From Anaerofustis stercorihominis DSM 17244 (GTDB taxonomy: Bacteria; Bacillota; Clostridia; Eubacteriales; Anaerofustaceae), in contig NZ_DS560019.1 of NCBI RefSeq assembly GCF_000154825.1, positions 1,034,501 through 1,098,500 on the forward strand: a stretch of 64,000 nt of DNA, read 5' to 3'. This document shows, piece after piece, positions 22,285-63,165 of this stretch; position 1 is the stretch's first letter; every line of letters starts with the position of its first letter. A program made the position numbers and the translations under genes. The notes under the pieces were generated by a model that saw only the letters and a list, made by a program, of their open reading frames with translations, was not told where the DNA came from and did not search any database.

Positions 22285-23086
22285 ATGGATTATAAACTAC
22301 TGATCACTGATTTGGACGGGACTATGCTAAACAGCAAAAGTGAAATCAGTAAAAAAAATACTTGAAGCAGTTCATGAGCTTCAGCAAAGAGGAAAATTTA
22401 TAAGCGTTGGCAGCGGCAGATTATATGTAGACGCGATAAAATTTGCCAGACAGCTGGGATGTCAGAATAACTTCAATATCGCAAACGGAGGTCTTACTAT
22501 TTTCAAGGAGGGCGAAGAAGAAGTGGTCGCTCATTTTGAAGAAAATTTCTATAAGAGGATAGTCGATATACTCAGATATAATAATATTCCTTTTGTGGTT
22601 ATGACAAGTAAGTATTCCGGTGCGTTTTATGATGAGTCGAGTAAAGAATTTGTACATAAATGTAAATCAATAAACCAGGATACCTTAATAGATTTTGTCG
22701 AAACCGATGTAAGAGAGCTTAAAAATGTATTTAAGATAAGTTCATCATATAAGAATGTCGATCATATATTCCTGCATAGAGAAATGGAAAGACTTCACAG
22801 TGATATTAGAGCGGATATTGCCGGGGAATATTTTATCGATTTATCTCCGAGAGGCGTATCAAAATGGAGCGGAGCTTTAAGGATAGCAAAGGAAATGGGT
22901 ATATCCACGAAAGAAATCATTGCTGTCGGGGACCAGGAGAACGATATGCAGATAGTCGGTAATGTAGGTCTTGGTATCGCAATGAAGAATGCGGTGGACA
23001 AACTTAAAAATGTAGCCGATGTAGTTCTTCCGTACACAAATGACGAGGACGGATTATATCATTTGATCCACGAATATATGCTTTAA
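22285..23086 (+). pseudogene. Cof-type HAD phosphatase 1, frameshifted in an A8 tract
   Basis: AAGGAGG precedes ATG 22285, and the first 26 codons encode MDYKLLITDLDGTMLNSKSE with the catalytic DLDGT. The frame then stops at TGA 22363 just after eight A residues (22351-22358). With seven As it would continue as KKILEAVHELQQRGK and run 248 more residues to 23086, including SPRGVSKWSGAL and the acidic motif GDQENDMQIVG. Thus the second ORF lacks the nucleophile Asp and the first is only a stub. Real mutation, sequencing error or transcriptional slippage on A8 are all possible. Four intact paralogues follow. Confidence 0.88.
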
Positions 23087-23153
23087 GAAATTAAATCCTA
23101 TCAAAGGAAATTTAAATATATTTAAAATATACACAAACATTGAGGAGAGCATA

Positions 23154-23951
23154 ATGAAATATAAATTGATTGTTATGGATGTTGATAATACTCTGCTTTG
23201 TACCGATAAGAGTGTTTCAAAAAAGAATTTAGAGGCTATAAAAAAATGTAAAGATAAAGGGATAATGGTGTCTCTTGCAAGCGGCAGACCTGCTCTAGAT
23301 GTGCTTCATTATGCCAAAATGATAGGTATAGAAGATAACTACCATATTTCGGATAATGGTGCGGGGATATTTAAAGGCAACGACAGAAAAATAATAAAGA
23401 CTTTTAATCATGATTTTTATATTGATTTGGTGGATAAACTTAGGGCAAAAGGTATCGAATGCGGAGTATTTTCCAGTGAAAATCTTGATTTTGTATATGA
23501 AAATGGAAGCGAAAGCATAGGCAAAAGCATTGAAATTTATTTTCCGGTAACTAAAACAAAATTGGGAAATATCAAAGATATAAAAGGTGTATATAAAATA
23601 AGTACTTACTTTAAAGATGACAAAGAATATGAATTTGTCAAGGGGCTTGAAAAAGAAAATGAAATGAGCGGAGTTATCCCCGATCCCAATTACTTTGATA
23701 TGATGCCATATGAAATCACCAAGATAAAGGGAACCGAGGCGATTGCAAAGGAACTTGGTATTTCCATGGATGAGGTCATCGTAATGGGAGATCAGGAAAA
23801 TGATTATACGAATATAAAAGGTGCTGGACTTGGTATTGCAGTAGCCAATGCGACAGATGATGTCAAAGAAATCGCAGATGTGGTTTTAGAACAAAGCTGT
23901 GATGAAGATGCTGTTGCATATGTAGTAGATAAATATATATTGGGGGAATAG
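23154..23951 (+). CDS. Cof-type HAD phosphatase 2
   Basis: 265 residues; predicted Mg-dependent hydrolase of small phosphorylated metabolites. Nucleophile motif DVDNT (Asp9, Asp11), SGR motif SLASGRPALDV, motif III Lys region and motif IV GDQENDYTNIKGAG. Cap domain of the IIB type lies between. AGGAG before ATG. Followed 3 bp later by the next paralogue. Confidence 0.9.
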   Translation: MKYKLIVMDVDNTLLCTDKSVSKKNLEAIKKCKDKGIMVSLASGRPALDVLHYAKMIGIEDNYHISDNGAGIFKGNDRKIIKTFNHDFYIDLVDKLRAKGIECGVFSSENLDFVYENGSESIGKSIEIYFPVTKTKLGNIKDIKGVYKISTYFKDDKEYEFVKGLEKENEMSGVIPDPNYFDMMPYEITKIKGTEAIAKELGISMDEVIVMGDQENDYTNIKGAGLGIAVANATDDVKEIADVVLEQSCDEDAVAYVVDKYILGE

Positions 23952-23954
23952 ACT

Positions 23955-24752
23955 TTGAAGTATGAGCTTTTAGTAACGGACTTGGATGATACGCTTTTGA
24001 AAGATGACGGAACGATATCCGATAAAAATAAAAAGGCACTAAGAACTTTAATCGAAAATGGCGGTAAAGTTGCCCTTGCAAGCGGAAGAGCAGCTCCTAC
24101 GATGGTGGATGTAATAAAGATGGTCGGACTAACAGACCAAAAACATTTGGCTCACAACGGACTTAGTATCTTTAATATAGACGGATATGAAAAAATTTCA
24201 GGCTTTTTGCCAAAAAATGAAATTATAAGGATCCTTGATTTATTAAAGGAAAATAATATAGAAGCGAATGTGTTTACGCCTAAGGGGATATATCATAACC
24301 ATAGTTTTGAATTGGCAAAAGTCATGGATAAATATATCAAAGGTTATCCATTAATAGATGTTGATTATACACCTTATGATGTCGAAGGTATATTTTTGAT
24401 TTATGGAATTATAAATAACGAAGAAGAAAGAGCATTGATGCGTTCTTGGTCAAATGATGTGATAGAAACGGGAGAAGGGAACGGTTTTGTCATATTTTCA
24501 TTAAGAGGCGAAGGCAAGTATAAAGGAGCAAAGAGACTGTCGGAGGAATTTGGTATAGACGAGAGCAAAATAGTTTGTGTCGGAGACGGCGGAAATGACC
24601 TACAAATGCTCAGGGAAGCACCTCTTGGAATAGCGGTAAAGAATGCCGTAGAGGAAGCTAAAGAGGCTGCAAAAATAGTAATAGATAAAACCAATGAAGA
24701 AGATGCTATCAGCTATGTTATAGAAAAATATTTTTTAGGAGAAAAATTATGA
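23955..24752 (+). CDS. Cof-type HAD phosphatase 3
   Basis: 265 residues, TTG start at 23955 with a GGGGAA stretch a few bases upstream. DLDDT (Asp9, Asp11), ALASGRAAPTMVD and GDGGNDLQMLREA are complete, so it should be active. Its TGA stop overlaps the next ATG by 4 bp. Substrate unknown. Confidence 0.88.
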   Translation: MKYELLVTDLDDTLLKDDGTISDKNKKALRTLIENGGKVALASGRAAPTMVDVIKMVGLTDQKHLAHNGLSIFNIDGYEKISGFLPKNEIIRILDLLKENNIEANVFTPKGIYHNHSFELAKVMDKYIKGYPLIDVDYTPYDVEGIFLIYGIINNEEERALMRSWSNDVIETGEGNGFVIFSLRGEGKYKGAKRLSEEFGIDESKIVCVGDGGNDLQMLREAPLGIAVKNAVEEAKEAAKIVIDKTNEEDAISYVIEKYFLGEKL

Positions 24753-25552
24753 TAAAATTATTGGCTGTGGATTTAGACCATACACTTCTGAGAGACGGAA
24801 ATATTATTTCAAAAGAAGATAAAGAGGCTATTAAAGCTTTGGAAGCTACGGGCGTTAAAATAGTACTTGATTCGGGTAGAAGCGAACCTACTATGAAGGA
24901 TATGATTTATGAACTCGGACTTGAAAAGTATAAACATGTTGGAGTAAACGGAGCTCTTATAATGGATTATACAAGTAAGAATAAATTCGTAGAGGCTATT
25001 GACCGTGATACATATGTGGCTTTAATAGAAAGGCTCAGAAAGGAAAACAGAGAATTTTTCTGTTATTGTGACGGGGGACTTATGTATGAGCATGTAGATA
25101 AATTAAGACCTCAGGTGGAATATTTCCATTCAAGTAAAGCTCTTATTAAGGGCGATGTAATGTCTATTCCTGAATGTCCCAGAGTAAACACATATTACGG
25201 TGACGAAGAAGAGCTTAAATATGTAAGAAGTATCTGTCCTGAAGGATTATATTCAACTGCCAACAGCGGTATACTGGATTATATGCCAATAGGGCTCAAT
25301 AAATTTTCCGGACTCAAACCTATACTTGAAGATTATGGGATATTGCCTGAAGAAGTGGCTTGTATTGGGGATCAGGAAAGCGATATCGACATGTTTAAAG
25401 CCTGCGGTATGTCTTTTGCGGTAAGTAACTGCGATGACTTTGCGAGAGAAGCAGCGGATATCGTACTTCCGAGAAGTCACAATGAGAATGGTGTTGCGTA
25501 TGCAATTTATAAATATTTGTTAAAAGATGAAGAAAAATTAAAAGAAATATAG
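24749..25552 (+). CDS. Cof-type HAD phosphatase 4
   Basis: 267 residues. Nucleophile motif DLDHT (Asp8, Asp10). The last motif reads GDQESDIDMF: the second Asp is kept but the usual Asn is Ser. FSGLKPILEDYGILPEEVA matches the motif III-IV region. Most similar to paralogue 5 (shared Y-K-HV-NGALI and FFCY stretches), which suggests a recent duplication. Confidence 0.88.
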   Translation: MIKLLAVDLDHTLLRDGNIISKEDKEAIKALEATGVKIVLDSGRSEPTMKDMIYELGLEKYKHVGVNGALIMDYTSKNKFVEAIDRDTYVALIERLRKENREFFCYCDGGLMYEHVDKLRPQVEYFHSSKALIKGDVMSIPECPRVNTYYGDEEELKYVRSICPEGLYSTANSGILDYMPIGLNKFSGLKPILEDYGILPEEVACIGDQESDIDMFKACGMSFAVSNCDDFAREAADIVLPRSHNENGVAYAIYKYLLKDEEKLKEI

Positions 25553-25580
25553 TAGAAAAATATATCTGAATTATATATAA

Positions 25581-25605
25581 TAGCCATAGCTTTATGCTGT
25601 GGCTA
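25581..25605 (+). other. Hairpin between HAD 4 and HAD 5
   Basis: TAGCCATAGC (25581-25590) pairs with GCTGTGGCTA (25596-25605), one G-T pair, loop TTTAT. No T run follows, and a ribosome-binding site lies just downstream. Perhaps a processing or attenuation element. Confidence 0.55.
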
Positions 25606-25627
25606 TAAGAATTTAACGGAGGATAAA

Positions 25628-26440
25628 ATGATAAAATTATTTTCAGTAGATTTAGATGATACATTTTTAGATAAAAACGATAATATGTCAAAGGAAAATA
25701 TCAATGCCGTAAGAGACCTTGTTGATGCGGGAGTAAAAGTAGTATTAAACTCGGGAAGAACGGAAGTTCTTATGAGAGAGCATATACATGATTTGGGGCT
25801 TGAAGATTTTAAACATGTCGCAATAAACGGAGCTTTGATACTTGATGTCAAAGGAGAAAATAAACTGATTTCTTACTTTGATAAAAATTCATACGAAAAT
25901 TTCATAAAAGAGCTGAGAGCTGAAAACAGAGGGTTCTTCTGTTATCATGAAAATGGGATTATGTATGAAAATGCAGACGAGAAATTAATGCGTCATATAG
26001 AAAGATTTCATACCTTAAAGAAAGCCTGTGAAGGCGATACTCTCTCTTTGGATAAATGCTGCAGAGTTGCAGTTGTAAGGGAAAATGAGGAAGATGTACC
26101 TCATTTGAGAGCTCTTGCCCCTAAAGGAGTATATACCACTGCAAGACCTTACGGAGAGTGTGTAAGTTATATGCCGAATGGTTTAAATAAAGCAAACGGA
26201 CTTAAAGTAATCATGGATGAATATGGAATAACAGCAGATGAGGTTGCAAGTATCGGCGATCAGGAAGTAGATACGTATATGTTTGATATTTCAAAGTATG
26301 GGATTGCAGTTAAAAACAGCGATGATAAAACAAAAGAAGCCGCTGATATAGTTCTTCCGAGGACCAATAATGAAAATGCATTTGCATATGCTGCATATAA
26401 ATATATTTTAAAAGATGAAGATAAATTGAAACATGTATAA
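25628..26440 (+). CDS. Cof-type HAD phosphatase 5
   Basis: 270 residues, GGAGG upstream of ATG. DLDDT (Asp8, Asp10), LNSGRTEVLMREHIHDL and GDQEVDTYMFD; the Asn of the last motif is replaced by Val. NGALILDVKGENKLISYFDK and RAENRGFFCYHENG parallel HAD 4. Last gene of the cluster; the 41-bp repeat and T-rich sequence follow. Confidence 0.88.
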   Translation: MIKLFSVDLDDTFLDKNDNMSKENINAVRDLVDAGVKVVLNSGRTEVLMREHIHDLGLEDFKHVAINGALILDVKGENKLISYFDKNSYENFIKELRAENRGFFCYHENGIMYENADEKLMRHIERFHTLKKACEGDTLSLDKCCRVAVVRENEEDVPHLRALAPKGVYTTARPYGECVSYMPNGLNKANGLKVIMDEYGITADEVASIGDQEVDTYMFDISKYGIAVKNSDDKTKEAADIVLPRTNNENAFAYAAYKYILKDEDKLKHV

Positions 26441-51884: not shown

Positions 51885-53063
51885 CTAACGATATGATTTT
51901 CTAAAGATTTCTGCACAGTCTTCATGAGTCATTTCACATGGATTTGCGAGGAACAATCCGCCCATTGTTTCCCTTGCATTTGTAGCAAGAGTATCCGCTT
52001 CGTCAATAGTAAATCCGTAATTGCTCATCTTAAGGTTTTCTACGTTACATTCTTTTTGTAGGTTGTATAAAGCCGTAAGGAAATCTTCCGGTTTATCTGC
52101 GTCTTTTATTCCCATTACTTTCGCCATTTTAATAAACTGTTCGTCACAGGCGTGTTTATCGATAAAGAATTTATAGAATTCATTTGAAATCATAATAAGT
52201 CCCGCACCGTGAGGTAAATTGCTGTGATAAGCACTCATTGCGTGTTCCATGGAATGTTTTGCCGTTGTGCTTGTAAGCTGCATCGTTATTCCTGCCATGG
52301 TACTTGCGTAAGCAACTCTTTCTCTTGCTTCGATATCATTCCCGTTCTTTACTGCAATAGGGAGGTATTTTGCTATATTTTCAATAGCGGATAATGCTAT
52401 GGTTTCGCTTAAGATATTTATGTCTTTGCTTATCATTACTTCCGTGTTGTGAAACAGTGCGTCAAAACCTTGGTATGCGGTGTATTTTGCAGGTACTGTC
52501 AGCATTAATGTCGGGTCGACTATAGAAAGAACGGGATTTAGTTCGGGAACTCCTCCGAAACCTATTTTTTCATTTGCTTCATTGTTGCTTATAACTCCCC
52601 AGCAGTTTATTTCGGAACCTGTTCCCGAGGTGGTTGCTATTGTTACGATTGGTAGAGGTTTACTTATAAGCGGCTTAGCTTTACCTGTACCTCCTGCAAC
52701 ATAGTCCCATAAATCTCCCGGATTGGTAGCCATTGCCGCAACTGCTATAGAAGAGTCCAGTACCGCACCTCCTCCGAGAGCTACTATGAAATCACAGCTA
52801 TTTTTTTTTGCTGTTGAAGCCGCTTCCATAACAACTTCTTTTGTTGGGTTTTCGTGAATATTAGCACATAAAGTGTACTCCACCCCTGCTTCTTCCAGTT
52901 GTTTTTGAACCTTATTTAGCGTTCCGTTTTCCCTTGTTGATTTTCCGTTTGAAATAAGCAGTAAAGCTTTCTTACCCGGTAATTTTTGTTTGCCTAGTTC
53001 GTTCAACATTCCCGTTCCGAACAATAAGTTTGTCGATGTAAATAAATTAAAATTCATGTTCAT
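51885..53063 (-). CDS. Iron-containing alcohol dehydrogenase
   Basis: 392 residues, group III alcohol dehydrogenase (YqhD/BDH-like). [13 protein letters not shown] is the NAD(P) loop, [10 protein letters not shown] the next conserved part, and the metal ligands lie in [13 protein letters not shown] (Asp, His) and [22 protein letters not shown] (several His). AGGAG lies before ATG. Probably reduces aldehydes with NADPH; induced through the adjacent LysR regulator. Confidence 0.93.
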
Positions 53064-53084
53064 AATAAAATCTCCTAAATTTTT

Positions 53085-53306
53085 TTAATATATTTGTTTC
53101 TTCATTTTATAAATCAAATAGTCGAGACAATCGATCATTTTGTAACTATCATGGATTTGATTTATAAGTGAAGTCCTGTGCATTGAAAGAAGCCTAAGTT
53201 GTCCTTGATGGTTGCCGTATTTTTCAAATTTGATATACTTTGTTATGAAATCATCATTACAGCCCGCATCTTTTAGATTTTGAATAATATCAAGTTTACT
53301 TTTCAT
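53085..53306 (-). CDS. Small helical protein linked to LysR/oxidoreductase clusters
   Basis: 73 residues, GGAGG seven bases before ATG. LKDAGCNDDFITKYI and GQLRLLSMHRTSLINQIHDS followed by IDCLDYLIYKMKK. Proteins of this size and shape commonly precede NADPH oxidoreductase genes next to LysR regulators in Firmicutes, from general knowledge of such loci. Function unknown. First gene of the minus-strand cluster, 21 bp before the alcohol dehydrogenase. Confidence 0.75.
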   Translation of the reverse strand: MKSKLDIIQNLKDAGCNDDFITKYIKFEKYGNHQGQLRLLSMHRTSLINQIHDSYKMIDCLDYLIYKMKKQIY

Positions 53307-53329
53307 AATAATGCCTCCTTCTTAATTAA

Positions 53330-53413
53330 ATTATATGTAAGAAATATAAAATAGCAAATACCTATATTGAATGGATTACCATAGTTGACAGGAATGGTAA
53401 TAATCTATAAAAT
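53330..53413. promoter_or_regulatory. Divergent promoters with LysR-type operator
   Basis: A perfect inverted repeat ATTACCAT (53375-53382) / ATGGTAAT (53394-53401), 11-bp centre, has the T-N11-A form of LysR sites. The plus-strand promoter for lysR, TTGACA (53385-53390)-17-TAAAAT (53408-53413), lies across it, so binding would repress lysR. The minus-strand promoter TTGCTA (53357-53352)-16-TATAAT (53335-53330) begins 17 bp beyond it, the right distance for activation. Confidence 0.8.
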
Positions 53414-53449
53414 ATAAAAAAGATAAAAAAGATAAGGAGATGCGATAAT

Positions 53450-54325
53450 ATGGAATTAAGAGTACTTCGTTATTTTTTGGCGGTTGCCAGAGAAGAAAAT
53501 ATTACTGCGGCGGCGGAAGTTTTACATATAACTCAGCCGACACTTTCAAAACAGCTTATGGATTTGGAGAAGGAGCTTGGAAAACAATTATTTATAAGAG
53601 GGAAAAGAAAAATTACCCTTACCGAAGAAGGTATGTTTCTTCGAAGGCGTGCTCAGGAGATCGTTGAGCTTGCTGATAAAACTCAGTCGGAGTTTTTATC
53701 AAATGAAGATATAATAAGCGGGGATATATATATCGGCGGGGGAGAGACCGATGCCATGAGGATAGTGGCTAAGACCGCAAAAGAACTACAAAAAAATTAT
53801 CCGGGTATCAGATATCATCTCTACAGCGGGAATGCACAGGACGTGACCGAAAGGCTGGACAAGGGATTATTGGATTTTGGTATTTTAATAGGTTCATCGA
53901 ATTTAAATAAATATGATTATATTAGGCTTCCCGTTACGGATACATGGGGGCTTTTGATGAAAAAGGACAGCCCTCTTATGGATAAAGACGTGATAAGTTC
54001 AGCGGATTTAAAAGATTTACCTTTGATAGTTTCCATACAGGCGCTGAAAACAAATGAATTATCGGGGTGGAGCGGGTATAGCTTTGAAGATTTAAATATC
54101 GTTGCGACTTATAATTTAGTTTATAATGCTACATTAATGGTCGATGAAGGGCTGGGATACGTACTTACTTTGGATAAGCTCGTAAATACCTCCGGTGGAA
54201 GCAAGTTTTGTTTTAAACCGCTGAAACCTAAATTGGAAGCACCTCTTTATATCGTTTGGAAAAAGTATCAGGTCTTTTCAAAGGCTACCGAGAAATTTAT
54301 TGAGGCATTGCAGGATTTATTGTGA
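53450..54325 (+). CDS. LysR-family transcriptional regulator
   Basis: 291 residues. N-terminal helix-turn-helix MELRVLRYFLAVAREENIT and AEVLHITQPTLSKQLMDLEK, then the effector-binding domain (about 90-290) with GDIYIGGGETDAMRIVAK. AAGGAGATG lies before ATG. Divergent from the redox cluster it most likely activates; no inducer can be inferred with confidence, but quinone, aldehyde or other electrophile stress fits the genes. Confidence 0.92.
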   Translation: MELRVLRYFLAVAREENITAAAEVLHITQPTLSKQLMDLEKELGKQLFIRGKRKITLTEEGMFLRRRAQEIVELADKTQSEFLSNEDIISGDIYIGGGETDAMRIVAKTAKELQKNYPGIRYHLYSGNAQDVTERLDKGLLDFGILIGSSNLNKYDYIRLPVTDTWGLLMKKDSPLMDKDVISSADLKDLPLIVSIQALKTNELSGWSGYSFEDLNIVATYNLVYNATLMVDEGLGYVLTLDKLVNTSGGSKFCFKPLKPKLEAPLYIVWKKYQVFSKATEKFIEALQDLL

Positions 54326-54347
54326 TTTATAATCGGCGAAGAAATAT

Positions 54348-54372
54348 AAAACCGATCGAATCGATCGGTTTT
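54348..54372. terminator. Bidirectional terminator between lysR and the 54371 gene
   Basis: AAAACCGATCG (54348-54358) and CGATCGGTTTT (54362-54372) form an 11-bp stem with loop AAT. It serves converging genes. Confidence 0.88.
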
Positions 54373-54898
54373 AGTTATTGTTTTTTATATCATGTTTTAG
54401 AAAAACTTCTTTAATATTTTCAAAATCAATATTTTTTATTTTTATGGGTTCGTTGATATTGATTTTTTTATTATTTCTATCATATAGATATATAGTGTAG
54501 TAATCATCATCGGATGTGGAAATAGAATAATAATTTATCCATTTATATTTTATTATTTGAGATTTTAAAATAATACCACTTTTATATAATCCTATATTTA
54601 AATATTTGTTTTGTAAGATTGAGCTTATATAAATCCCGCTTATGACAGCACAAAGAAAAGAAAAAAGCCAGGAGGGAATGAGTTCATTATTATTATAAAA
54701 ACTGATTATAAATACACAGAAAAGACTTCCGATCAGAGTTAGTATAATAAGCCATAATTCCTTTTTCGTATCATGATTTAATTCATTTATTTTAAATTCT
54801 AATTCCCCATAGGCTTTTAAACTATTGTTTATAAGTTTTTGTCTTATATATATAGTTATCAAAGTCAATATAACGTATAATATCATATCAGTTATCAT
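54371..54898 (-). CDS. Membrane protein, unknown
   Basis: 175 residues. Helices at about 5-20, 48-67 and 75-95, then a soluble beta-rich part: GLYKSGIILKSQIIKYKWIN and YTIYLYDRNNKKININEPI. The last part resembles DUF5673/PH-like membrane proteins, but I would not insist. AGGAGGG lies before ATG. It is 57 bp downstream of the hydroxyacid dehydrogenase and may belong to the PTS operon. Confidence 0.65.
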   Translation of the reverse strand: MITDMILYVILTLITIYIRQKLINNSLKAYGELEFKINELNHDTKKELWLIILTLIGSLFCVFIISFYNNNELIPSWLFSFLCAVISGIYISSILQNKYLNIGLYKSGIILKSQIIKYKWINYYSISTSDDDYYTIYLYDRNNKKININEPIKIKNIDFENIKEVFLKHDIKNNN

Positions 54899-54955
54899 TT
54901 TTTCCCTCCTGATTTTTATTTACTTAGAAGAGTATATCAGCTCTTCATCGTAAGT

Positions 54956-56011
54956 TTATTTTTCACATTCAAATATAATACCGCCTCGATTTTTAAACTC
55001 TAAGGAGTCAAATACTTTGGGATTATATAATCTGAGTCCTTTTGTTTTGCCTTTTTTGAATTTATCAAAACTATCCATTAAATATTCATATTGATGAGGA
55101 ACTCTTTCCATTGAAATACCTGCCATATGCGGAGTTAATAATAGTTTATCCTCAGGGATTTTATAGGCTCTGCTATCTTTGTTTAAAGGTTCCGAGGTAA
55201 ATACGTCCAAAGCCGCACCTTTAATTATATCGTTATCCAGAGCATCGAATATAGCTTTTTCATCAGCAAGTTTCGATCTCCCGGTATTTATGAGATATGC
55301 GGTAGGTTTCATCATTGCGATTTCTTTCTTACCTATCATGCCCTCTGTTTCAGGTGTCACTCTTGCAAGTAATGTGACATAATCTCCCGCTGACATTGCA
55401 TCCGGAAGAGACATCATAGTAACGTTTAATTCCTCTGCTTGTTTTTTTGTTACATACGGGTCATAAGAAACTACATTCATACCAATGCCGTTAGCTAATT
55501 TCGCAAGCTCTCTTCCGTTTCTTCCAAGTCCTATAATAGAAAGTGTTTTCCTATATAATTCCGTTTGCGAAAATAAGTCTTCTGTCATATTCGTAGAAGT
55601 CCAGCCTTCATTTCTCATTCGATTGGTTAATCTAATAAAGTTGCATGCAAGATTAAACATCAACGTCATATTCAATTCTGCAACACTATGTACACATCTT
55701 CCTCCCGCAAACAAAACCGGTATCCCGTATTTGGTACACATATTTATATCTATATTTTCTTCCGGACCGTCTCTTACGCTTAAAATCATTTTTAATTTGG
55801 GACAATTCTTTATTATCTCTTCATCTACAGGGTCGTATCCGTCAATAAAAATATCTTTATCCTTTAATACTTCTATCAAGTCTATACCTCTCAGTAATCC
55901 GTCAGGATATACTGCCCCTATATTTAAGCTGGCTCTTTCAAGTTCAAAATTTTGTGAGAATATTTTTTTCCATTCATCATCATATTCTCCTGTCCATAGA
56001 GCTTTTAACAT
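54956..56011 (-). CDS. D-isomer-specific 2-hydroxyacid dehydrogenase
   Basis: 351 residues, NAD-dependent interconversion of a D-2-hydroxyacid and a 2-ketoacid. Rossmann loop LSIIGLGRNGRELAKLANGI, then LARVTPETEGMIGKKEIAMM, INTGRSKLADEKAIFDAL (catalytic Arg region EPL lies later in VFTSEPLN) and the catalytic His in LLTPHMAGIS. The N-terminal 60 residues are less conserved. Its place at the end of a PTS/aldolase operon suggests that it acts on a sugar-acid-derived intermediate. Preceding gene is a small membrane protein. Confidence 0.88.
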   Translation of the reverse strand: MLKALWTGEYDDEWKKIFSQNFELERASLNIGAVYPDGLLRGIDLIEVLKDKDIFIDGYDPVDEEIIKNCPKLKMILSVRDGPEENIDINMCTKYGIPVLFAGGRCVHSVAELNMTLMFNLACNFIRLTNRMRNEGWTSTNMTEDLFSQTELYRKTLSIIGLGRNGRELAKLANGIGMNVVSYDPYVTKKQAEELNVTMMSLPDAMSAGDYVTLLARVTPETEGMIGKKEIAMMKPTAYLINTGRSKLADEKAIFDALDNDIIKGAALDVFTSEPLNKDSRAYKIPEDKLLLTPHMAGISMERVPHQYEYLMDSFDKFKKGKTKGLRLYNPKVFDSLEFKNRGGIIFECEK

Positions 56012-56056
56012 TATTCTCTAACCTCCGTTGTTATTTTTTGAAGTTTTAAGAAAATG

Positions 56057-56410
56057 TTATTTTAGTCTCAAGTATTTACTTATTATATATTGATTAACTA
56101 TGATATTTCCGATGAGCATACCTGCTACATAATAAATAATACCTATTGTGGAATTAAAATATAATATTATAAAAGGAGCCGTAACAGATAAGATGATATT
56201 CATCACTCCGTAAATAATATTGATATATGAAATATCGATTCTCTTTATTTTATAGAGTTTATATTTACTGTTTAATACATGAGCCATGGCTTTATCGGAT
56301 TTTTTATCATTGCTGTAATAAGTCTTCCTAAAAATAGCTATTATATTTAAAATAGTAATTATTGAAAATACTATCAATATTAAAGTTTTATCACTTATTG
56401 AGTCTAACAT
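56057..56410 (-). CDS. Small membrane protein, unknown
   Basis: 117 residues with helices at about 9-27, 62-85 and 88-108 and a basic loop between the first two (YKLYKIKRIDI). No family recognised. It lies between the aldolase and the hydroxyacid dehydrogenase genes, 26 bp after the former, so belongs to the same transcript by position. Weak ribosome-binding site (AAGGTATAAG). Confidence 0.6.
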   Translation of the reverse strand: MLDSISDKTLILIVFSIITILNIIAIFRKTYYSNDKKSDKAMAHVLNSKYKLYKIKRIDISYINIIYGVMNIILSVTAPFIILYFNSTIGIIYYVAGMLIGNIIVNQYIISKYLRLK

Positions 56411-56436
56411 TTTCTTATACCTTCTTTTTTGAAATT

Positions 56437-57327
56437 TTATGCTTTATTTGTGCTTTTGAACAAATCTATATAATATTCAAGCATATCCGAATAACCTGCA
56501 TAGTATGCGGGAAGCGGATACATGAGTTTTGTGAGCATATCATCAGAATCCTTCAAATATCCATTATTGATATATTCACGCCCTTTTTTTAATAAGTCAC
56601 TGCAAATATTTACTTTACATATGCCTTCTTTGCAGGCACGTGCCAGATTATCATCTCCGGAACCACTCCCGCCGTGTATGACTAACGGCACCTTAACTGC
56701 GTCTCTGAGCTTTTTTAATAATTCAAAGTCAATGCTCGGTTTTAATCCTTTGGGGTAGAGTCCGTGTACTGTGCCGATAGCTACAGCTAGGCAGTCCACT
56801 TTTGTTCTTTCAACGTATTCCACTGCTTCTTCTACTTTTGTAAAAGTAGCTTTTTTATCTTCTTCGGTAATGATCGTATTACTTCCAAGCATCCCCTCCG
56901 AGTCAGCTCCTATATTGGTTCCCACATGTCCGAGCTCGGCTTCTACCGAACATCCCAATGTATGAGCGATTTTAACTATTTCCGATACTTCTTTTATGTT
57001 ATCTTCGAATTCGAGCATTGAGCGGTCAACCATAATGGAAGTAAAATCCATTTTTAATGATTTTATGATTTGTTCATAGTCTCCTCCGTGATCGAGATTT
57101 ATCGCTACGGGTACTTTTGAATGTATTGCCTTATCCTTTGCGTAATTTACGAATGTGGATAAATCATCATTCGTTTCAAATGTTACATTCAATATGATCG
57201 GAGCATTTTTCTTTTCCGCGGTTTTGATTGCAACATCAATTGTCTTATAGTCAAGTACATTCGGCGCCGCAACTGCATAATGGTCCTCTCTGGCTTTATC
57301 CAGGATTGGTTTCATTGTGTATAACAT
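56437..57327 (-). CDS. Class II fructose/tagatose-bisphosphate aldolase family protein
   Basis: 296 residues, zinc-dependent aldolase. Catalytic Asp79 and zinc ligand His80 are in INLDHGG; EAELGHVG, GTVHGLYP (zinc His) and LVIHGGSGSGDDN (zinc His and phosphate loop) follow, then KVNICSDL. Overall more like GatY/KbaY-type or short FbaA-type than long FbaA. A PTS operon setting suggests cleavage of a ketose phosphate made from the imported sugar. Substrate cannot be told. Confidence 0.88.
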   Translation of the reverse strand: MLYTMKPILDKAREDHYAVAAPNVLDYKTIDVAIKTAEKKNAPIILNVTFETNDDLSTFVNYAKDKAIHSKVPVAINLDHGGDYEQIIKSLKMDFTSIMVDRSMLEFEDNIKEVSEIVKIAHTLGCSVEAELGHVGTNIGADSEGMLGSNTIITEEDKKATFTKVEEAVEYVERTKVDCLAVAIGTVHGLYPKGLKPSIDFELLKKLRDAVKVPLVIHGGSGSGDDNLARACKEGICKVNICSDLLKKGREYINNGYLKDSDDMLTKLMYPLPAYYAGYSDMLEYYIDLFKSTNKA

Positions 57328-57330
57328 ATT

Positions 57331-57765
57331 CTATATCCTTTCCGTCTTGGTAAATCCTTTTGTTTCTTTTTCTAAAGATTGTTTTAATGTTTCCATTCTG
57401 CTTTCTTTTGTCTTCATCTTTTCCTTGTATTCCTGAATGTCTTTTGCTAAAGCACCTGACAGAAAAGTTTTTAATGATTTTTCGATATTTTGTTGACTCT
57501 CACTTTTGTTCTTTACCGAATGAATAAGGGTATATACTTTATCGAAATAATATATCGTATAGTCCAGTCCTTTTTCATCAAGCATATAATGTATACCCGA
57601 CTGTGCACCTGAATGCTTTGCACATTCAAACTGTTCCTGCAAAACCATAACAAGAGTATCTGCGTATTCTTTATCCCATTTTCTTTTTAACTTTGTACTT
57701 ATAAGCATGCAAAGTGAAAAACCTATGACAAAGCTTATAATAGTAAGTATTATATATTTTCCCAT
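57331..57765 (-). CDS. Membrane-anchored coiled-coil protein in PTS operon, unknown
   Basis: 144 residues. One membrane helix (about 4-24), then Lys/Glu-rich helices including ECAKHSGAQSGIHYMLDEKG and a C-terminal coiled coil (about 105-140). Not a PTS subunit. Three bases separate its end from the aldolase start codon region, so co-translation is likely. I do not recognise it. Confidence 0.65.
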   Translation of the reverse strand: MGKYIILTIISFVIGFSLCMLISTKLKRKWDKEYADTLVMVLQEQFECAKHSGAQSGIHYMLDEKGLDYTIYYFDKVYTLIHSVKNKSESQQNIEKSLKTFLSGALAKDIQEYKEKMKTKESRMETLKQSLEKETKGFTKTERI

Positions 57766-57804
57766 TTTAAATCGTTGACCTTTCTGTCATATTTTTATTT
57801 ACTT

Positions 57805-58653
57805 TTATCCAAATAATCCCAAAATACCAAGAATTATGCAAATAACTATAATTCCTATCATTATTTTTGCAATATGTATTTTCTTTTTCTTAAAAAGATA
57901 ATATATTATAAATACGGGAGCTAAACCTGAAATACCCGGAAGAAGTGAATCTACTAATTCGTGTAGGGATTGTTTCCCAATGGTGACTGCAGTTACAAAG
58001 TTGACATTTCCTGCAGTTAAAGCTCCCATTATGCACATTGCAACAACTGCGGATACGGTGAGTACTTTTTGTGCCAGTTTGGAGGATGTAAGTTTCGATA
58101 CTGCTTCTCTTCCTGAATAATATCCGGAGAAACAGGTAAGCCAAGATAATAAATATCTGGAAAATCCTATCCCAAGCCAAGATATCGGTACAGCGAGGAA
58201 GTTGCCTGCCATTGCGAGAGGCTGTGCATAACCTATGGTTATTACCCAAAATACCGTTTGAACGATAGTATCTCCAAACCCAGCCAATGGACCCATCAAA
58301 CCGGTTTTAACCGCCCTTATCAAATCAGGAGAAATAGTGGACTCTCCGTTTTCGTAGAGGTCATTAGCTCTTTGTTCTTCCATTGAAATTATAAGTCCGT
58401 TTATACAACCGCCCCATGCGTAATCTGTCATGTAAAAATCCATATGTCTGGTTAAGGCTTCTGCCAAATCATCTTTATTTTTATAAAACTTATGTAATAT
58501 ATATTCCATTGCGGAAGAAAATGATAATCCGCCTTTTCTTGTATTCCCCTGTGTATGGGCGATACCATCCATAAATATAAGCTGCTCCATAAATAAGTCA
58601 AATTTAGTAATTTTATCCGGAGCTTTTCTTTCAATATTATTATTTTCTGACAT
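57805..58653 (-). CDS. PTS mannose/fructose/sorbose family IID component
   Basis: 282 residues, integral part of the sugar channel. GIAHTQGNTRKGGLSFSSAM, EALTRHMDFYMTDYAWGGCI and AVKTGLMGPLAGFGDTIVQT are typical of IID. Several membrane helices at the C-terminus. AGGAGG lies before ATG, and it starts 2 bp after the IIC stop. Sugar specificity is not evident. Confidence 0.93.
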   Translation of the reverse strand: MSENNNIERKAPDKITKFDLFMEQLIFMDGIAHTQGNTRKGGLSFSSAMEYILHKFYKNKDDLAEALTRHMDFYMTDYAWGGCINGLIISMEEQRANDLYENGESTISPDLIRAVKTGLMGPLAGFGDTIVQTVFWVITIGYAQPLAMAGNFLAVPISWLGIGFSRYLLSWLTCFSGYYSGREAVSKLTSSKLAQKVLTVSAVVAMCIMGALTAGNVNFVTAVTIGKQSLHELVDSLLPGISGLAPVFIIYYLFKKKKIHIAKIMIGIIVICIILGILGLFG

Positions 58654-58655
58654 AT

Positions 58656-59441
58656 TTAATTACCTCCTATCAAATTTTCGGAATCGTTCATGCCTTCTCT
58701 GTTAAGCATGTATATAAATCCTAAAATCAGTCCTATAAGTCCTATAACAATAGTTGATAGACCTGCAAATTTTACGAGATAAAATCCTACGAAGAAATAT
58801 GGTAAGAATTTCATTTTACCTATTAATGCCAGGAACATTGCAAAACCTACTGCCGGCATCAATCCTGCTGCGGCACCGAAGCCTAGCATTACGCTTTCGG
58901 GGATTTTGTTTATTATCAAACTTGTTGCGGCTGTTCCCGCATAAACTCCCATGAATGCAACAACGAATTTAAATGCTGTATTCAGTACTGCAGGCAATAC
59001 ATGACTTACATATAGAAGTTTCTTCCAATTTCCCTCGGCAGCTGCTTTATCTCCCAAAGGGACATACACAAGATCAAATAAACCGATTATATTAATTTGC
59101 CCTAGGAAGTTTGCGATTACCGCTACCGGTGCGGCAATTGCGACTGCTGCTGTGATATCAAGTCCGTAGCTTATAACCAGAGGTATTACCAGTGTAGCGG
59201 AATACCATAAATCTACGGTCGTAATCCCTCCGATAATGACCGGAGTCATATTTATCGTTTGTATCGTCGCACCTATTATAAGTCCCTGCTTCCAATCTCC
59301 TAGCACGGCACCGATAAGCCATGAGAAAGTAAAAGGAGTGACCATCGTCGTAATCATGCCGATCGGAGGAAGTCCGCCGTTTCCGTGGAACAGTGCGTAA
59401 ATCAAAGATATCAAAACTACTTGTATTAATGTGATTTCCAT
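58656..59441 (-). CDS. PTS mannose/fructose/sorbose family IIC component
   Basis: 261 residues with about eight membrane helices. GLPPIGMITTMVTPFTFSWL, VLGDWKQGLIIGATIQTINM and LMPAVGFAMFLALIGK fit IIC of the Man family. Encodes the sugar-translocating unit with IID. Start 59441 follows AAAGGAAAAT, 19 bp after the IIB stop. Confidence 0.92.
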   Translation of the reverse strand: MEITLIQVVLISLIYALFHGNGGLPPIGMITTMVTPFTFSWLIGAVLGDWKQGLIIGATIQTINMTPVIIGGITTVDLWYSATLVIPLVISYGLDITAAVAIAAPVAVIANFLGQINIIGLFDLVYVPLGDKAAAEGNWKKLLYVSHVLPAVLNTAFKFVVAFMGVYAGTAATSLIINKIPESVMLGFGAAAGLMPAVGFAMFLALIGKMKFLPYFFVGFYLVKFAGLSTIVIGLIGLILGFIYMLNREGMNDSENLIGGN

Positions 59442-59460
59442 TTTATATTTTCCTTTCTAT

Positions 59461-59958
59461 TTAAAATTTTCCTTTTATTCCATACTCAAAGGAAACCGGC
59501 TCGAATTGAGGAGAATACTGCATATTTACTTCTACGCCGTAGTCTTTTTCCATTTTCCTTACTAAATCCACATCAGCTTCACTGATGCATAGAGATTGGT
59601 CGATCCTTTCTCTTCCTTTTTTGGGGTTTGTCCATCCAAGCTGAAGGGAAGTAAAGTTTAAACCTTTTTCATAAGCATTATAAGCATCCTCAATGGATTT
59701 AAAGATTAAAAGTATCCGTCCTTCGCCGAGCCCTTTTTCTTTCCATGATGAAACTGCATTATCTATTGTCAATATATCTGCATTTAGTCCTGATGCACCG
59801 GATGCACTTGATTTCATAATGCTTTTTACAAAATCATCATTTGCGGTAATATCGTCGACCGCTATGATCGTATCGGCATTTACGTTTGGTGCCCATGTAA
59901 CACAGATAACTCCGTGGATCAATCTTTCATCAACTCTTACTAAAACGAGTTCTCCCAT
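59461..59958 (-). CDS. PTS mannose/fructose/sorbose family IIB component
   Basis: 165 residues. The phosphoryl-accepting His15 is in VRVDERLIHGVICVTWA. ADTIIAVDDITANDDFVKSI and LQLGWTNPKKGRERIDQS are typical of Man/Sor IIB. Passes phosphate from IIA to the sugar. AGGAGG before ATG; one base separates it from the IIA stop. Confidence 0.94.
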   Translation of the reverse strand: MGELVLVRVDERLIHGVICVTWAPNVNADTIIAVDDITANDDFVKSIMKSSASGASGLNADILTIDNAVSSWKEKGLGEGRILLIFKSIEDAYNAYEKGLNFTSLQLGWTNPKKGRERIDQSLCISEADVDLVRKMEKDYGVEVNMQYSPQFEPVSFEYGIKGKF

Positions 59959-59959
59959 T

Positions 59960-60385
59960 TTAATTTCCTCCTTTTTGATTTTTGTTCATTGTTAGAACGG
60001 TTTCTAAGTTTTGAATTCCGTTTATCGCAGATTCTATGGAATACTGTGCAGTACTGTCTAAATCCATTCCTTGTGATCTTGCTTCTATTGCAGCGAATAA
60101 CATGGGAAGGTTTAACCCTGTGACTATTTTTACATTTTTGGAAGTTAGTAATTTACCTGATTGATTGCAGGGGCTTCCTCCAAGCAAATCTGCAAATATC
60201 AACACACCTTCTCCGTTATCCATTTCGTCAACTGTTTCAGCTATTAAAGGAGCAAACTTATTTATATCATCGGCTACATTTAAAGACAGAGCTTTCACTT
60301 TATCCTGTTCTCCCATGATACAGTTCATTGCATCTCTAACACCTTTACTTAAGTTGCTGTGCGAAGCGAGTATAATTCCTATCAT
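59960..60385 (-). CDS. PTS mannose family IIA component
   Basis: 141 residues from ATG 60385 (AAAGGATGGTG upstream; the frame extends to 60421 without a better site). His9 in ILASHSNLSKGVRDAM is the phosphorylation site, and VLIFADLLGGSPCNQSGKLL is the conserved DLxGGSP part. Receives phosphate from HPr. First gene of the PTS operon. Confidence 0.93.
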   Translation of the reverse strand: MIGIILASHSNLSKGVRDAMNCIMGEQDKVKALSLNVADDINKFAPLIAETVDEMDNGEGVLIFADLLGGSPCNQSGKLLTSKNVKIVTGLNLPMLFAAIEARSQGMDLDSTAQYSIESAINGIQNLETVLTMNKNQKGGN

Positions 60386-60430
60386 TATTACACCATCCTT
60401 TCCGTAAAATTTATGCTTCAATTATATATA

Positions 60431-60447
60431 AGAAAATATCATGCCAA
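60431..60447 (-). promoter_or_regulatory. Candidate sigma-54 promoter of the PTS operon
   Basis: On the minus strand TTGGCATGATATTTTCT (60447-60431) matches the -24/-12 pattern: TTGGCA with GG, ten bases, then TC where GC is usual. Start about 60420, 35 nt before the IIA ATG. The presence of a LevR-type activator with GAYTGA upstream supports it; the mismatch at -12 weakens it. Confidence 0.65.
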
Positions 60448-60473
60448 GTTGATGTGTATAAAAATAAATAAAA

Positions 60474-60508
60474 AATAAGAGGCAAATCCCTTTATTTAGC
60501 CTCTTATT
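60474..60508 (-). terminator. Terminator of levR
   Basis: AATAAGAGGC (60474-60483) and GCCTCTTATT (60499-60508) pair perfectly; T-rich sequence follows on the minus strand. It separates levR from the PTS promoter. Confidence 0.85.
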
Positions 60509-60554
60509 GCAAATTTCTGTTTTTTTATATAATTATACATATGCTGACTTTATT

Positions 60555-60599
60555 TTATACACATTAAATTTTCAATGATTTAATTGATTATGTGTATAA
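60555..60599. promoter_or_regulatory. TTATACACAT inverted repeats, candidate activator sites
   Basis: TTATACACAT (60555-60564) and ATGTGTATAA (60590-60599) are perfect inverted copies. A further ATGTGTATAA is at 60452-60461 beside the sigma-54 promoter, and TGTGTATA recurs upstream of levR at 63204-63211. They are placed 100-150 bp upstream of the start, like enhancer sites of LevR-type activators. Confidence 0.55.
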
Positions 60600-60601
60600 T
60601 T

Positions 60602-63165
60602 TTAAATCTCAAAATCATAATGAACATCAAACATTTCTATTATTGCTTCATACTCGCTCGGATACATAATAAAACCAAATTCCTGATAAACCGGTCTGAA
60701 ATACTCTTCCAATTTTTTAAGGGTTTCTTTTCTGTTATTATAGTAATAGTTGAGGTTTTTTCCCGGCATAGGTTCTTTTTTTATAGCTCGTTCAACCATA
60801 AATGCACAGTGCATTATAAACTTATATTCAAACATTTTGTCTTTTGTAAGTCCTAAATCGTTCCATATATTTATAAGGACAGATTTTAAAGAATTATAAA
60901 TTTTTGTCGGATCTATGAAAGTCAACATTTCATCAAGGACTTTAATGAATTTTTTTTCTTCACTGTTCATTAATGTATTATTATTTTTATTTATATTTCT
61001 TTTGTTATATATTACATTATCGTCTATCAACTCATTATAAAAATCATTTAATTCTACTGTGGAACTATATGCTCTTCTCGTAATTTCCAATGCCATAAGC
61101 GTCGTTACATTTGGGATAGATATTGTAGGTATCCCCGTTTCCTCGGTGATCAATGTGTCAAAGTCGCATAAAGATTCCATATCCGTTAGTAATATCACGC
61201 CTTTTCCCTTATCTATTTCTTTTACTAAATTAATCGCTTTATTTAATATACTTTCTACCTTTTCGTTAAGAGGAACGTCCAAAGCATATAGACCTTCTAT
61301 GTCCAAGAGTGTATTCACCACTTCCGCTATAGAACTTGCAACATTGCTTCCGTGAGCTATGCATAAAACTCCTATCCTGTTTCCCAGATCCATATCATTC
61401 ATCGTATGTAACAGCATTGTTACAAACATGATTTCGTTTGAAGAGATTTCTATATTGAGTTCTTTTGAAAGTACTTCGATTATCTTTTGAGCTGCGTAAT
61501 AGTCGATGGGGTAGAGCTGCTCTACAGATTTGATCAAATTATTATTTACGGAATATTTGCCGCTTTTTATCCTTTCAATCAAATTATTTATATGTAAAGA
61601 TAATGCACAAACGATCCTCTTATTGTTTTCCTGGTTATTATATATGGTTTTGACGGAATCGATAGCATCGATAACTGCTTCAATGATCCTTTCATCGACT
61701 ATTCTCGAAAGCAGTTCTCCGTATTCGGGAAGCTGATTACTTCTTATTTTTTCCTGCATGGATAAGAAATAACTCTTTAAATCATCTTCGACTTTTTTTC
61801 TCACATTATCGTTTTCTTCATTTTTAAATGATAGTTCATAGTAGTCTTCTATGATTTTGCTGTAGTATTTATTTTCATGTTCAAATTTATTCATTTGATT
61901 TGAAAGATACTTGCTTTCGTTGACTTCTCTGTAATCAAAAATTACCGTATCATCGAGAACGAGGTCTGCATAATTGCTGCTTTCGTGGTTTGTACTTATT
62001 AATCCAAGCTTCATATTGTTTGGAATATCGTTCCATTTTATCTTTATATCTTTTTCTGAATTTGTAACGCAGGAAAAATAACCCTTTGCACATATGAGCT
62101 GGATATCGCTTTTTAAACCGCCTATATTTAGCGGACAGTCGTAATTTAAACAACTTTTTAAAATCTTTTTGCTGACTTTAATCTTTCTTTTGGTCTTTGC
62201 CGATTCGACATAAAAGAATTTAAATATTAATTCCAATCTTTCCTGCGTATTGTATTTATTGATATCCGGTAACTCTATTGTTATGGGTATACGCCTTATG
62301 AAGGTATTTAAGAGCTGGGAATTTTTTCTTTCGGTAGTTGCCGCAATTATCATTAGGTCAGCTTTCCTTGTAATATCCGTTTCACCGACCCTTCTGTATA
62401 TACCTTTATCCATCAGGGTGAACAGCATTTCCTGTCCTTCCTTTGGAAGTCTGTGGACTTCGTCCAAGAATAATATCCCGCCGTTGGCTTTGTCGACTAA
62501 TCCCGTTCGTTCTGTGTCTGCACCCGTATATGCTCCTTTTATATTTCCGAAGAGCTGAGAGACTAAAAGCTGAGGATTGTCTGCGTAATCCGCACAATTG
62601 AAAACTACGAATTTTGTATCTTTATAAAACATACCTATCGTCATCCCATAGTTGTACATTGCTTCCGCAAAAGTGCTTTTCCCGCATCCGGTCGAACCTA
62701 TTAGTATTGTATTTAACCCCAAAGGGGGATAGGTAACTGCTGCTTTAGCCAATGAAACTTGATTTTTTAGTGTATCATTAAATCCCACTATATTTTTAAA
62801 TACATCATACACTTTTTTATCTTCATTTTTATTTTTTGTTATATCAATATTATCATTAAGAGAATTTAATATTGAGCTTTTATCGTATACACATTTATCT
62901 AAATTCTTATTAAAATTTTCTTCAAGCTTTTTTTATGGAAATATAATATTGGTTTTCCCGTTATTTTAATTAATATTTTATCTTCGACCAATTCGTTAAG
63001 ACATTTGCTTACATTTGTCCGTTGCATATTTAAATCATTTGCTACGGAGATAGTAGAGTAGTAACTGTAATTAAAATCTTTACTATCAAGAAAATAGTCT
63101 TTCGGTAAGTCAGACGTTCGTTTTTCTATTTCGTTTAATATGAGTTGGGCTTTATTCTTTTTCAT
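60602..63165 (-). pseudogene. levR: LevR-type sigma-54 activator, frameshifted after the HTH domain
   Basis: ATG 63165 (GGGAGAT upstream) starts a helix-turn-helix domain (TISVANDLNMQRTNVSKCLN) that stops at 62899 after seven As (TTTTTTT 62928-62934 on plus). Eight As would join it to the next frame, KKLEENFNKNLDK, which runs into the large ORF. That part (GTG 62812 to 60602, 736 residues) has Walker A GSTGCGKST, the sigma-54 contact GAYTGA, Walker B GGILFLDEVHRLP, a first PRD (ALSLHINNLIERI), an EIIA-like domain (VLCIAHGSNVASSIAE) and a second PRD (FIMHCAFMVERAIKKE). It should activate the PTS operon. As read here, the AAA part lacks its DNA-binding domain. Confidence 0.85.

Follow-up and report, generated by a model that had tools for sequence, protein, structure and literature searches.

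How an operon that imports its substrate through a phosphotransferase system (PTS), and that encodes neither a kinase nor an isomerase, could feed that substrate to an aldolase is the question raised by a run of minus-strand genes in Anaerofustis stercorihominis DSM 17244, located in a 64,000-nucleotide stretch of contig NZ_DS560019.1 (positions 1,034,501 to 1,098,500), here called the window. The operon joins a PTS of the mannose (Man) family to a class II aldolase and a D-2-hydroxyacid dehydrogenase (HADH). The answer proposed here, to which we give a probability of roughly 0.45, is a sigma54-activated catabolic operon in which the PTS would deliver a ketose-1-phosphate-type product, the aldolase would cleave it to dihydroxyacetone phosphate (DHAP) and an oxo-acid, and HADH would reduce the oxo-acid. 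An earlier note on the same DNA had proposed a keto-sugar acid or an unusual ketose as substrate, its phosphorylated form being cleaved directly or after dehydrogenation, and this interpretation was supported in part. Anaerofustis genomes are referred to as G000 (that of the window), G002 (sister species) and G001 (third genome).

Aldolase sequence and predicted structure

In alignments, the window aldolase keeps the metal and DHAP sites of the PF01116 fold (D79, H80, E131, H188, H218, N240/S243 and the GGSG loop), with DHAP-site roles assigned as is usual for this family. The DPR motif, which supplies the arginine for the second phosphate, was absent from the window aldolase and was present in FbaA, GatY, KbaY and the fructose-1,6-bisphosphate (FBP) aldolase of the window genome itself (C5:1342). 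The motif corresponds to D278-P279-R280 of Giardia FBP aldolase (chain numbering), and one source describes Arg280 as contacting carbon 6 of FBP (PMC4973958). It was found in all nine distinct solved bisphosphate aldolases for which the alignment reached the motif (1rv8, 2fjk, 1gvf, 3q94, 4to8, 7nc7 and three Giardia variants). For E. coli FbaA, the residues named in PMC11194214 are His110, His226, His264 and Glu174. DPR was also lacking in YdjI, in the G033 protein and in the other aligned PTS-linked relatives, likewise in three relatives from non-PTS settings (loci L053, L067 and L129), and the two remaining aldolases of the window genome carry DPK and DPL at this position. By alignment, the protein is a predicted PF01116 aldolase with its metal and DHAP residues in place and the second-phosphate arginine missing.

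The structural model displayed the expected barrel (pLDDT 77.5) and matched FBP, tagatose-bisphosphate, YdjI and SqiA aldolases in fold searches. The window aldolase missed the curated models TIGR01859 (208.3 bits against a cut-off of 343.05), TIGR01858 (186.4 against 443.55) and TIGR00167 (205.7 against 215.6). It is one of six PF01116 proteins of the genome, among which C5:1342 passed the FBP-aldolase model TIGR01859 (374.9 bits, cut-off 343), and these results rule out a sole glycolytic aldolase, which the earlier note had named as one outcome that would overturn its interpretation.

Separately, the window aldolase shares with its orthologue in G002 an insertion after AELGHVG (residues ~137-150) that the other aligned aldolases lack. 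Additional residues at this place in the FGGY-linked relative L070 may indicate a relationship with the kinase-linked group.

Aldolase neighbourhoods

From a search of 391 genomes of the class, the top 12 aldolase matches (E ≤ 1e-55) were taken and their surroundings read in fetched stretches. PTS genes adjoin the aldolase in 11 of these, belonging to the Man type in the window, G000:C5:1102078, G001, G233 and G264, to the Gat type in G000:C1:274759, G020, G024, G027 and G309, and to the Fru type in G231, and G033 is without PTS. PfkB and FGGY_N searches, which covered 11 genomes (the ten holding the 12 matches, plus G002), gave no match near the window operon or in the fetched stretches of the 11 PTS-linked clusters; the sole kinase match in the fetched clusters was an FGGY kinase in G033. 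Pfam searches of the operon proteins returned no kinase or isomerase domain, in agreement with the earlier note. FGGY-like kinases, as judged from the sequence rather than by family search, occur at L053, L067 and L129.

HADH accompanies the aldolase in five of the 12 cases (window, G000:C1, G020, G024, G027), alcohol dehydrogenases without HADH in five others (G000:C5:1102078, G001, G233, G264 and G309, the last being cut by a contig end), and neither enzyme in G231 and G033. Outside the 12, G002 carries an operon of Fru-PTS, HPr, HADH and aldolase; this operon and those of G020, G024 and G027 consist solely of genes for PTS, aldolase, HADH and either HPr or a regulator. Among 80 named loci found with HADH, an aldolase relative was seen in the fetched flank of five and PTS genes in that of three; L051 holds the same operon as the window, and in L056 and L061 the aldolase that accompanies Gat-PTS and HADH is of the AraD type.

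Several further systems were recorded in their own right. Just past the window, ~10 kb from the operon, a second Man-PTS operon (L038:1784-10523) encodes a 916-aa LevR of its own, an aldolase lacking DPR, and iron- and zinc-alcohol dehydrogenases. Upstream of the regulator in G002 (L043:3058-9371), the Fru-PTS/HPr/HADH/aldolase operon stands in place of this second G000 operon, so that PTS-aldolase modules seem to have been swapped between the species at this site. The Gat-PTS operon at L039:5041-12835 encodes a phosphotriesterase-family protein, an old yellow enzyme (OYE) flavoenzyme, aldolase, HADH and two Zn-dehydrogenases, perhaps forming a lactone or aldonate pathway; a literature search for hydrolysis of phosphorylated lactones by such an operon found nothing that could confirm the idea. 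At L145:2412-6977, a RuBisCO-like protein nearest to the MtnW enolase model adjoins a Gat-PTS and a DPR-less aldolase.

Hydroxyacid dehydrogenase

HADH retains the catalytic residues R245, E274 and H295 and the NAD-type D184; together with its domains, the Arg/Glu/His set places it among the D-2-hydroxyacid dehydrogenases. The top fold matches among solved structures were archaeal glyoxylate/hydroxypyruvate reductases (TM-score about 0.6, model pTM 0.68), and the best sequence match was phosphoglycerate dehydrogenase (PGDH, 1wwk). R80 and R105 were found in all 12 aligned operon-linked HADHs and R217 in seven of them; R105 aligns to an alanine in 1wwk.

Proposed pathway and alternatives

Since the DHAP-phosphate site is kept and the second-phosphate arginine is lost, the phosphate of the substrate would lie beside the keto group, and the PTS product would be a ketose-1-phosphate-type molecule that is cleaved at once. 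We infer the phosphorylation site, the order of steps, the substrate and the products as follows. The Man-family PTS would import a ketose-like compound while phosphorylating the hydroxyl beside its keto group, and the aldolase, being independent of a second phosphate, would split the product directly into DHAP, which would enter glycolysis, and an unphosphorylated aldehyde, which HADH would reduce with NADH. Such an aldolase usually goes together with an enzyme that handles the aldehyde it releases, and with HADH in this place that aldehyde would be an oxo-acid, which makes a ulosonate the most economical substrate. The simplest case would be a 4-keto-pentonate giving DHAP and glyoxylate, reduced to glycolate; alternatively, a 5-keto-hexonate would give DHAP and tartronate semialdehyde. 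Glyoxylate is slightly favoured because no tartronate-semialdehyde reductase over the cut-off (19.9 bits against 340.75) and no match to hydroxypyruvate isomerase were detected in the window genome; glycerate kinase is present. Anaerofustis butyriciformans is described in PMC12029686 as Biolog-positive for glyoxylic acid and several polyols, which is too indirect and was not used as evidence. As to substrate class, the choice of the earlier note, keto-sugar acids or unusual ketoses rather than mannose or sorbose, would probably still be the best.

From the two routes left side by side in that note, direct cleavage gained support from the missing arginine and from the distribution of kinases, absent from PTS-linked clusters and present in G033 without PTS. 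The order with dehydrogenation first is less favoured, because, with its DHAP-phosphate site kept, the aldolase requires a phosphate adjacent to the keto group. In that order, the PTS would import an aldonate and phosphorylate its far end, and oxidation at C2 by HADH would yield a 2-keto-acid phosphate for the aldolase to cleave; the phosphate would thus lie far from the keto group, where the enzyme misses its arginine. We regard this as unlikely, even with phosphorylated hydroxyacids as substrates of D-2-HADH relatives (PGDH and PdxB models match), with the extra R105 and R217 of operon-linked HADHs, and with the HADH gene ahead of the aldolase gene in G020, G024 and G027.

Rather improbable, too, is a neutral ketose whose plain 1-phosphate, as formed by sorbose and levan-type PTS, would be cleaved to DHAP and glyceraldehyde or a deoxy-aldehyde, with HADH balancing redox on, for example, pyruvate. 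Related aldolases with Fe- or Zn-alcohol dehydrogenases and no HADH (L038, G001, G233) are consistent with it. However, HADH adjoins this aldolase type in several PTS settings and lies close by at L053 and L129, in FGGY/ABC-transporter settings, and pairing across such varied settings suggests a role of HADH in the pathway itself. A kinase encoded elsewhere (three PfkB-domain and two FGGY matches lie in the genome, away from the operon) that would turn the protein into an ordinary ketose-bisphosphate aldolase is highly improbable given the absent DPR arginine, the scores under the TIGR01859 and TIGR00167 cut-offs, and the proper FBP aldolase C5:1342.

Several points weigh against direct cleavage followed by reduction of an oxo-acid. 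The C-terminal part of the aldolase, where DPR would sit, was modelled poorly (pLDDT 44-51, residues 241-270), and the modelled fold matches are unable to separate members of the D-2-HADH family. HADH misses every equivalog cut-off, those of the glyoxylate reductases included (PRK13243, 154 bits against 455; GhrB, 120 against 492), and in the alignment, the catalytic histidine is missing from one HADH relative, L045. The additional R105 and R217 could mean that HADH acts on a compound larger than glyoxylate or with more negative charge, and they leave room for dehydrogenation as the first step. Kinase counts cover fetched stretches, and L140, L145 and L147 end at or near contig edges. With its regulator frameshifted and the -12 element of its promoter changed, the operon may be silent or poorly induced in the strain of the window.

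More broadly, and only tentatively, the direct-cleavage scheme may exemplify a PTS-aldolase-reductase type of pathway, in which a PTS would replace transporter and kinase, a DHAP aldolase independent of a second phosphate would split the imported product at once, and the reductase that goes with it, be it HADH or an alcohol dehydrogenase, would report the aldehyde chemistry, here ulosonate to DHAP and oxo-acid. If true, kinase-free ketose-1-phosphate catabolism would become the assignment of a set of operons from gut and anaerobic Firmicutes whose aldolase would usually be labelled "fructose-bisphosphate aldolase"; presence or absence of DPR would serve as a single-motif marker, and the substrate class would be testable. 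Such operons would save the ATP of the second phosphorylation, and their having dehydrogenases in place of kinases would be explained.

Operon organisation, conservation and regulation

The eight genes described in the earlier note were recovered on the minus strand within the span it gave, 54956-60385, and in its order, six of them having Pfam support, and two elements beyond it, a ninth gene and a regulator, were added (Table 1). The four domains EIIA-man, PTSIIB_sorb, EII-Sor and EIID-AGA all score over the Pfam cut-off and assign the set to the PTS Man family.

Table 1. Coordinates of genes and putative control sites of the operon, with supporting evidence (dN/dS, ratio of nonsynonymous to synonymous substitution rates, and identity refer to comparison with G002).
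Feature	Position	Strand	Evidence
LevR/DagR-type sigma54-dependent activator, frameshifted	60602..63165	-	Pfam Sigma54_activat, PRD, EIIA-man
Sigma54-type -24/-12 site TTGGCATGATATTTTCT, upstream of IIA	60431..60447	-	Pattern scan; G002 counterpart TTGGCACGACATTTGCT
PTS Man-family IIA	59960..60385	-	PF03610, 6.9e-24; EIIA-man
PTS Man-family IIB	59461..59958	-	PF03830, 2.6e-36; PTSIIB_sorb
PTS Man-family IIC	58656..59441	-	PF03609, EII-Sor; identity 99%, dN/dS 0.007
PTS Man-family IID	57805..58653	-	PF03613, EIID-AGA; identity 99%, dN/dS 0.015
144-aa coiled-coil-like protein	57331..57765	-	Hydropathy: single N-terminal transmembrane segment, then charged stretch; dN/dS 0.11
Class II aldolase	56437..57327	-	PF01116 (F_bP_aldolase), 1.4e-77; alignment, model and fold match; dN/dS 0.069
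117-aa membrane protein	56057..56410	-	Hydropathy: several hydrophobic segments; dN/dS 0.125
NAD-type D-2-hydroxyacid dehydrogenase (HADH)	54956..56011	-	PF02826, 1.3e-50; 2-Hacid_dh and 2-Hacid_dh_C; dN/dS 0.057
175-aa membrane protein, ninth and last operon gene	54371..54898	-	G002 synteny, 75% identity; dN/dS 0.196
Terminator-like hairpin 3′ of ninth gene	54347..54373	-	12-pair stem; readable from plus strand too

Intergenic gaps are 1-57 bases. The hairpin past the last gene is the sole minus-strand terminator-like site within 52000-63000, so that the transcript is not predicted to end before the aldolase, the second outcome that the earlier note had held to be fatal to its interpretation. 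Terminator-like sites on both strands of this interval numbered five against 5.7 expected by shuffling, and thus the 12-pair stem alone argues for a terminator at 54373-54347.

Gene order is identical in G002, regulator and ninth gene included, the products of the eight genes being 86-99% identical. Pairwise dN/dS was below 0.2 for every gene (0.007-0.196); this and the synteny argue against reading frames that fell into this arrangement by chance, and all genes of the operon, small membrane proteins included, look real and under purifying selection. The fetched G001 locus (L144) carries only the other Man-PTS operon. No Pfam family above the cut-off was found for the 144-aa and 117-aa proteins, and the 175-aa protein gave a sub-threshold DUF5673 match (16.3 bits, cut-off 26.7). 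The 144-aa protein occurs in two of the three Anaerofustis genomes (not in G001) and had marginal matches alone (E about 1e-3) in four of 390 other genomes, which give it no functional name; for this reason, the small proteins were rejected as indicators of a broader system. Elsewhere in the window, at 22340-26440, five tandem paralogues of 248-270 aa have the look of HAD-type hydrolases, with 25-49% mutual identity.

By its domain order (winged-helix-like N-terminus, AAA, PRD, EIIA-man), the regulator is a predicted LevR/DagR activator; its frame is broken in a run of A, giving open reading frames at 63165-62899 and 62812-60602. The G002 regulator is intact (874 aa), with AAA-sigma54, PRD and EIIA-man in one protein. 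The downstream part has a dN/dS of 0.046 against G002, and it is possible that the frameshift is a homopolymer sequencing error. A scan of the whole window with the sigma54 -24/-12 consensus found, besides the site upstream of IIA, one other, inside the aldolase gene and presumably there by chance; one site each was found in L043, L038, L141, L142, L143 and L144, and none in L140. The -12 element differs between TTGGCATGATATTTTCT and its G002 counterpart TTGGCACGACATTTGCT; this and the frameshift, if real, are the grounds for suspecting poor induction in this strain, where the operon may be losing control, unless the frameshift is a sequencing error.

Comparison with known systems

Among the papers searched, few of them under subscription, none treated a sugar-acid operon of PTS, class II aldolase and hydroxyacid dehydrogenase, and papers on sorbose-1-phosphate with aldolase and PTS did not, by title and the start of the abstract, concern such an operon. 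By its domains and the missing DPR motif, the window operon is distinct from the Gat/Kba, glucoselysine and sulfo-EMP2 operons. The GatYZ and KbaYZ systems for galactitol and N-acetylgalactosamine also pair a PTS with a PF01116 aldolase, but their route includes a tagatose-6-phosphate kinase step, the aldolase is a DPR-bearing bisphosphate enzyme with a Z chaperone, and HADH is missing. The glucoselysine operon is marked by a SIS-type deglycase, and no SIS domain was found by Pfam in the window operon.

The Salmonella dga operon for D-glucosaminate has a Man-family PTS, a DagR-type activator and an aldolase, and uses an ammonia-lyase and a KDPG-type aldolase. The window operon resembles it in PTS and regulator, the best NCBIfam match of the latter being the DagR model, but the score (438 bits) is far under the cut-off of 1400, and ammonia-lyase and KDPG-type aldolase domains are absent.

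Two further systems depend on a kinase. In sulfo-EMP2 (SqiK, SqiA), as described in PMC9594981, a ketose-1-phosphate with a non-phosphate acidic tail is split into DHAP and an aldehyde, which anaerobes reduce. The likeness lies in the acidic-tailed ketose-1-phosphate and in SqiA, a PF01116 aldolase; the differences are a sulfonate substrate, the lack of a PTS, and the need for a kinase and an isomerase, and neither a SqiK-type PF00365 kinase nor an isomerase was found by Pfam in the window operon. In the E. coli ydj cluster, YdjI, annotated as L-glycero-L-galacto-octuluronate-1-phosphate aldolase, likewise has no DPR, and dehydrogenases are annotated alongside. It is ~30% identical to the window aldolase and was not grouped with it in the aldolase tree, where deep forks are open; Zn-dehydrogenases stand there in place of HADH, and the ATP kinase YdjH and non-PTS transporters in place of the PTS, no sugar kinase being adjacent to the window aldolase. 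The window operon falls outside both systems for want of a kinase and, by analogy, would work like them, with the PTS replacing kinase and transporter.

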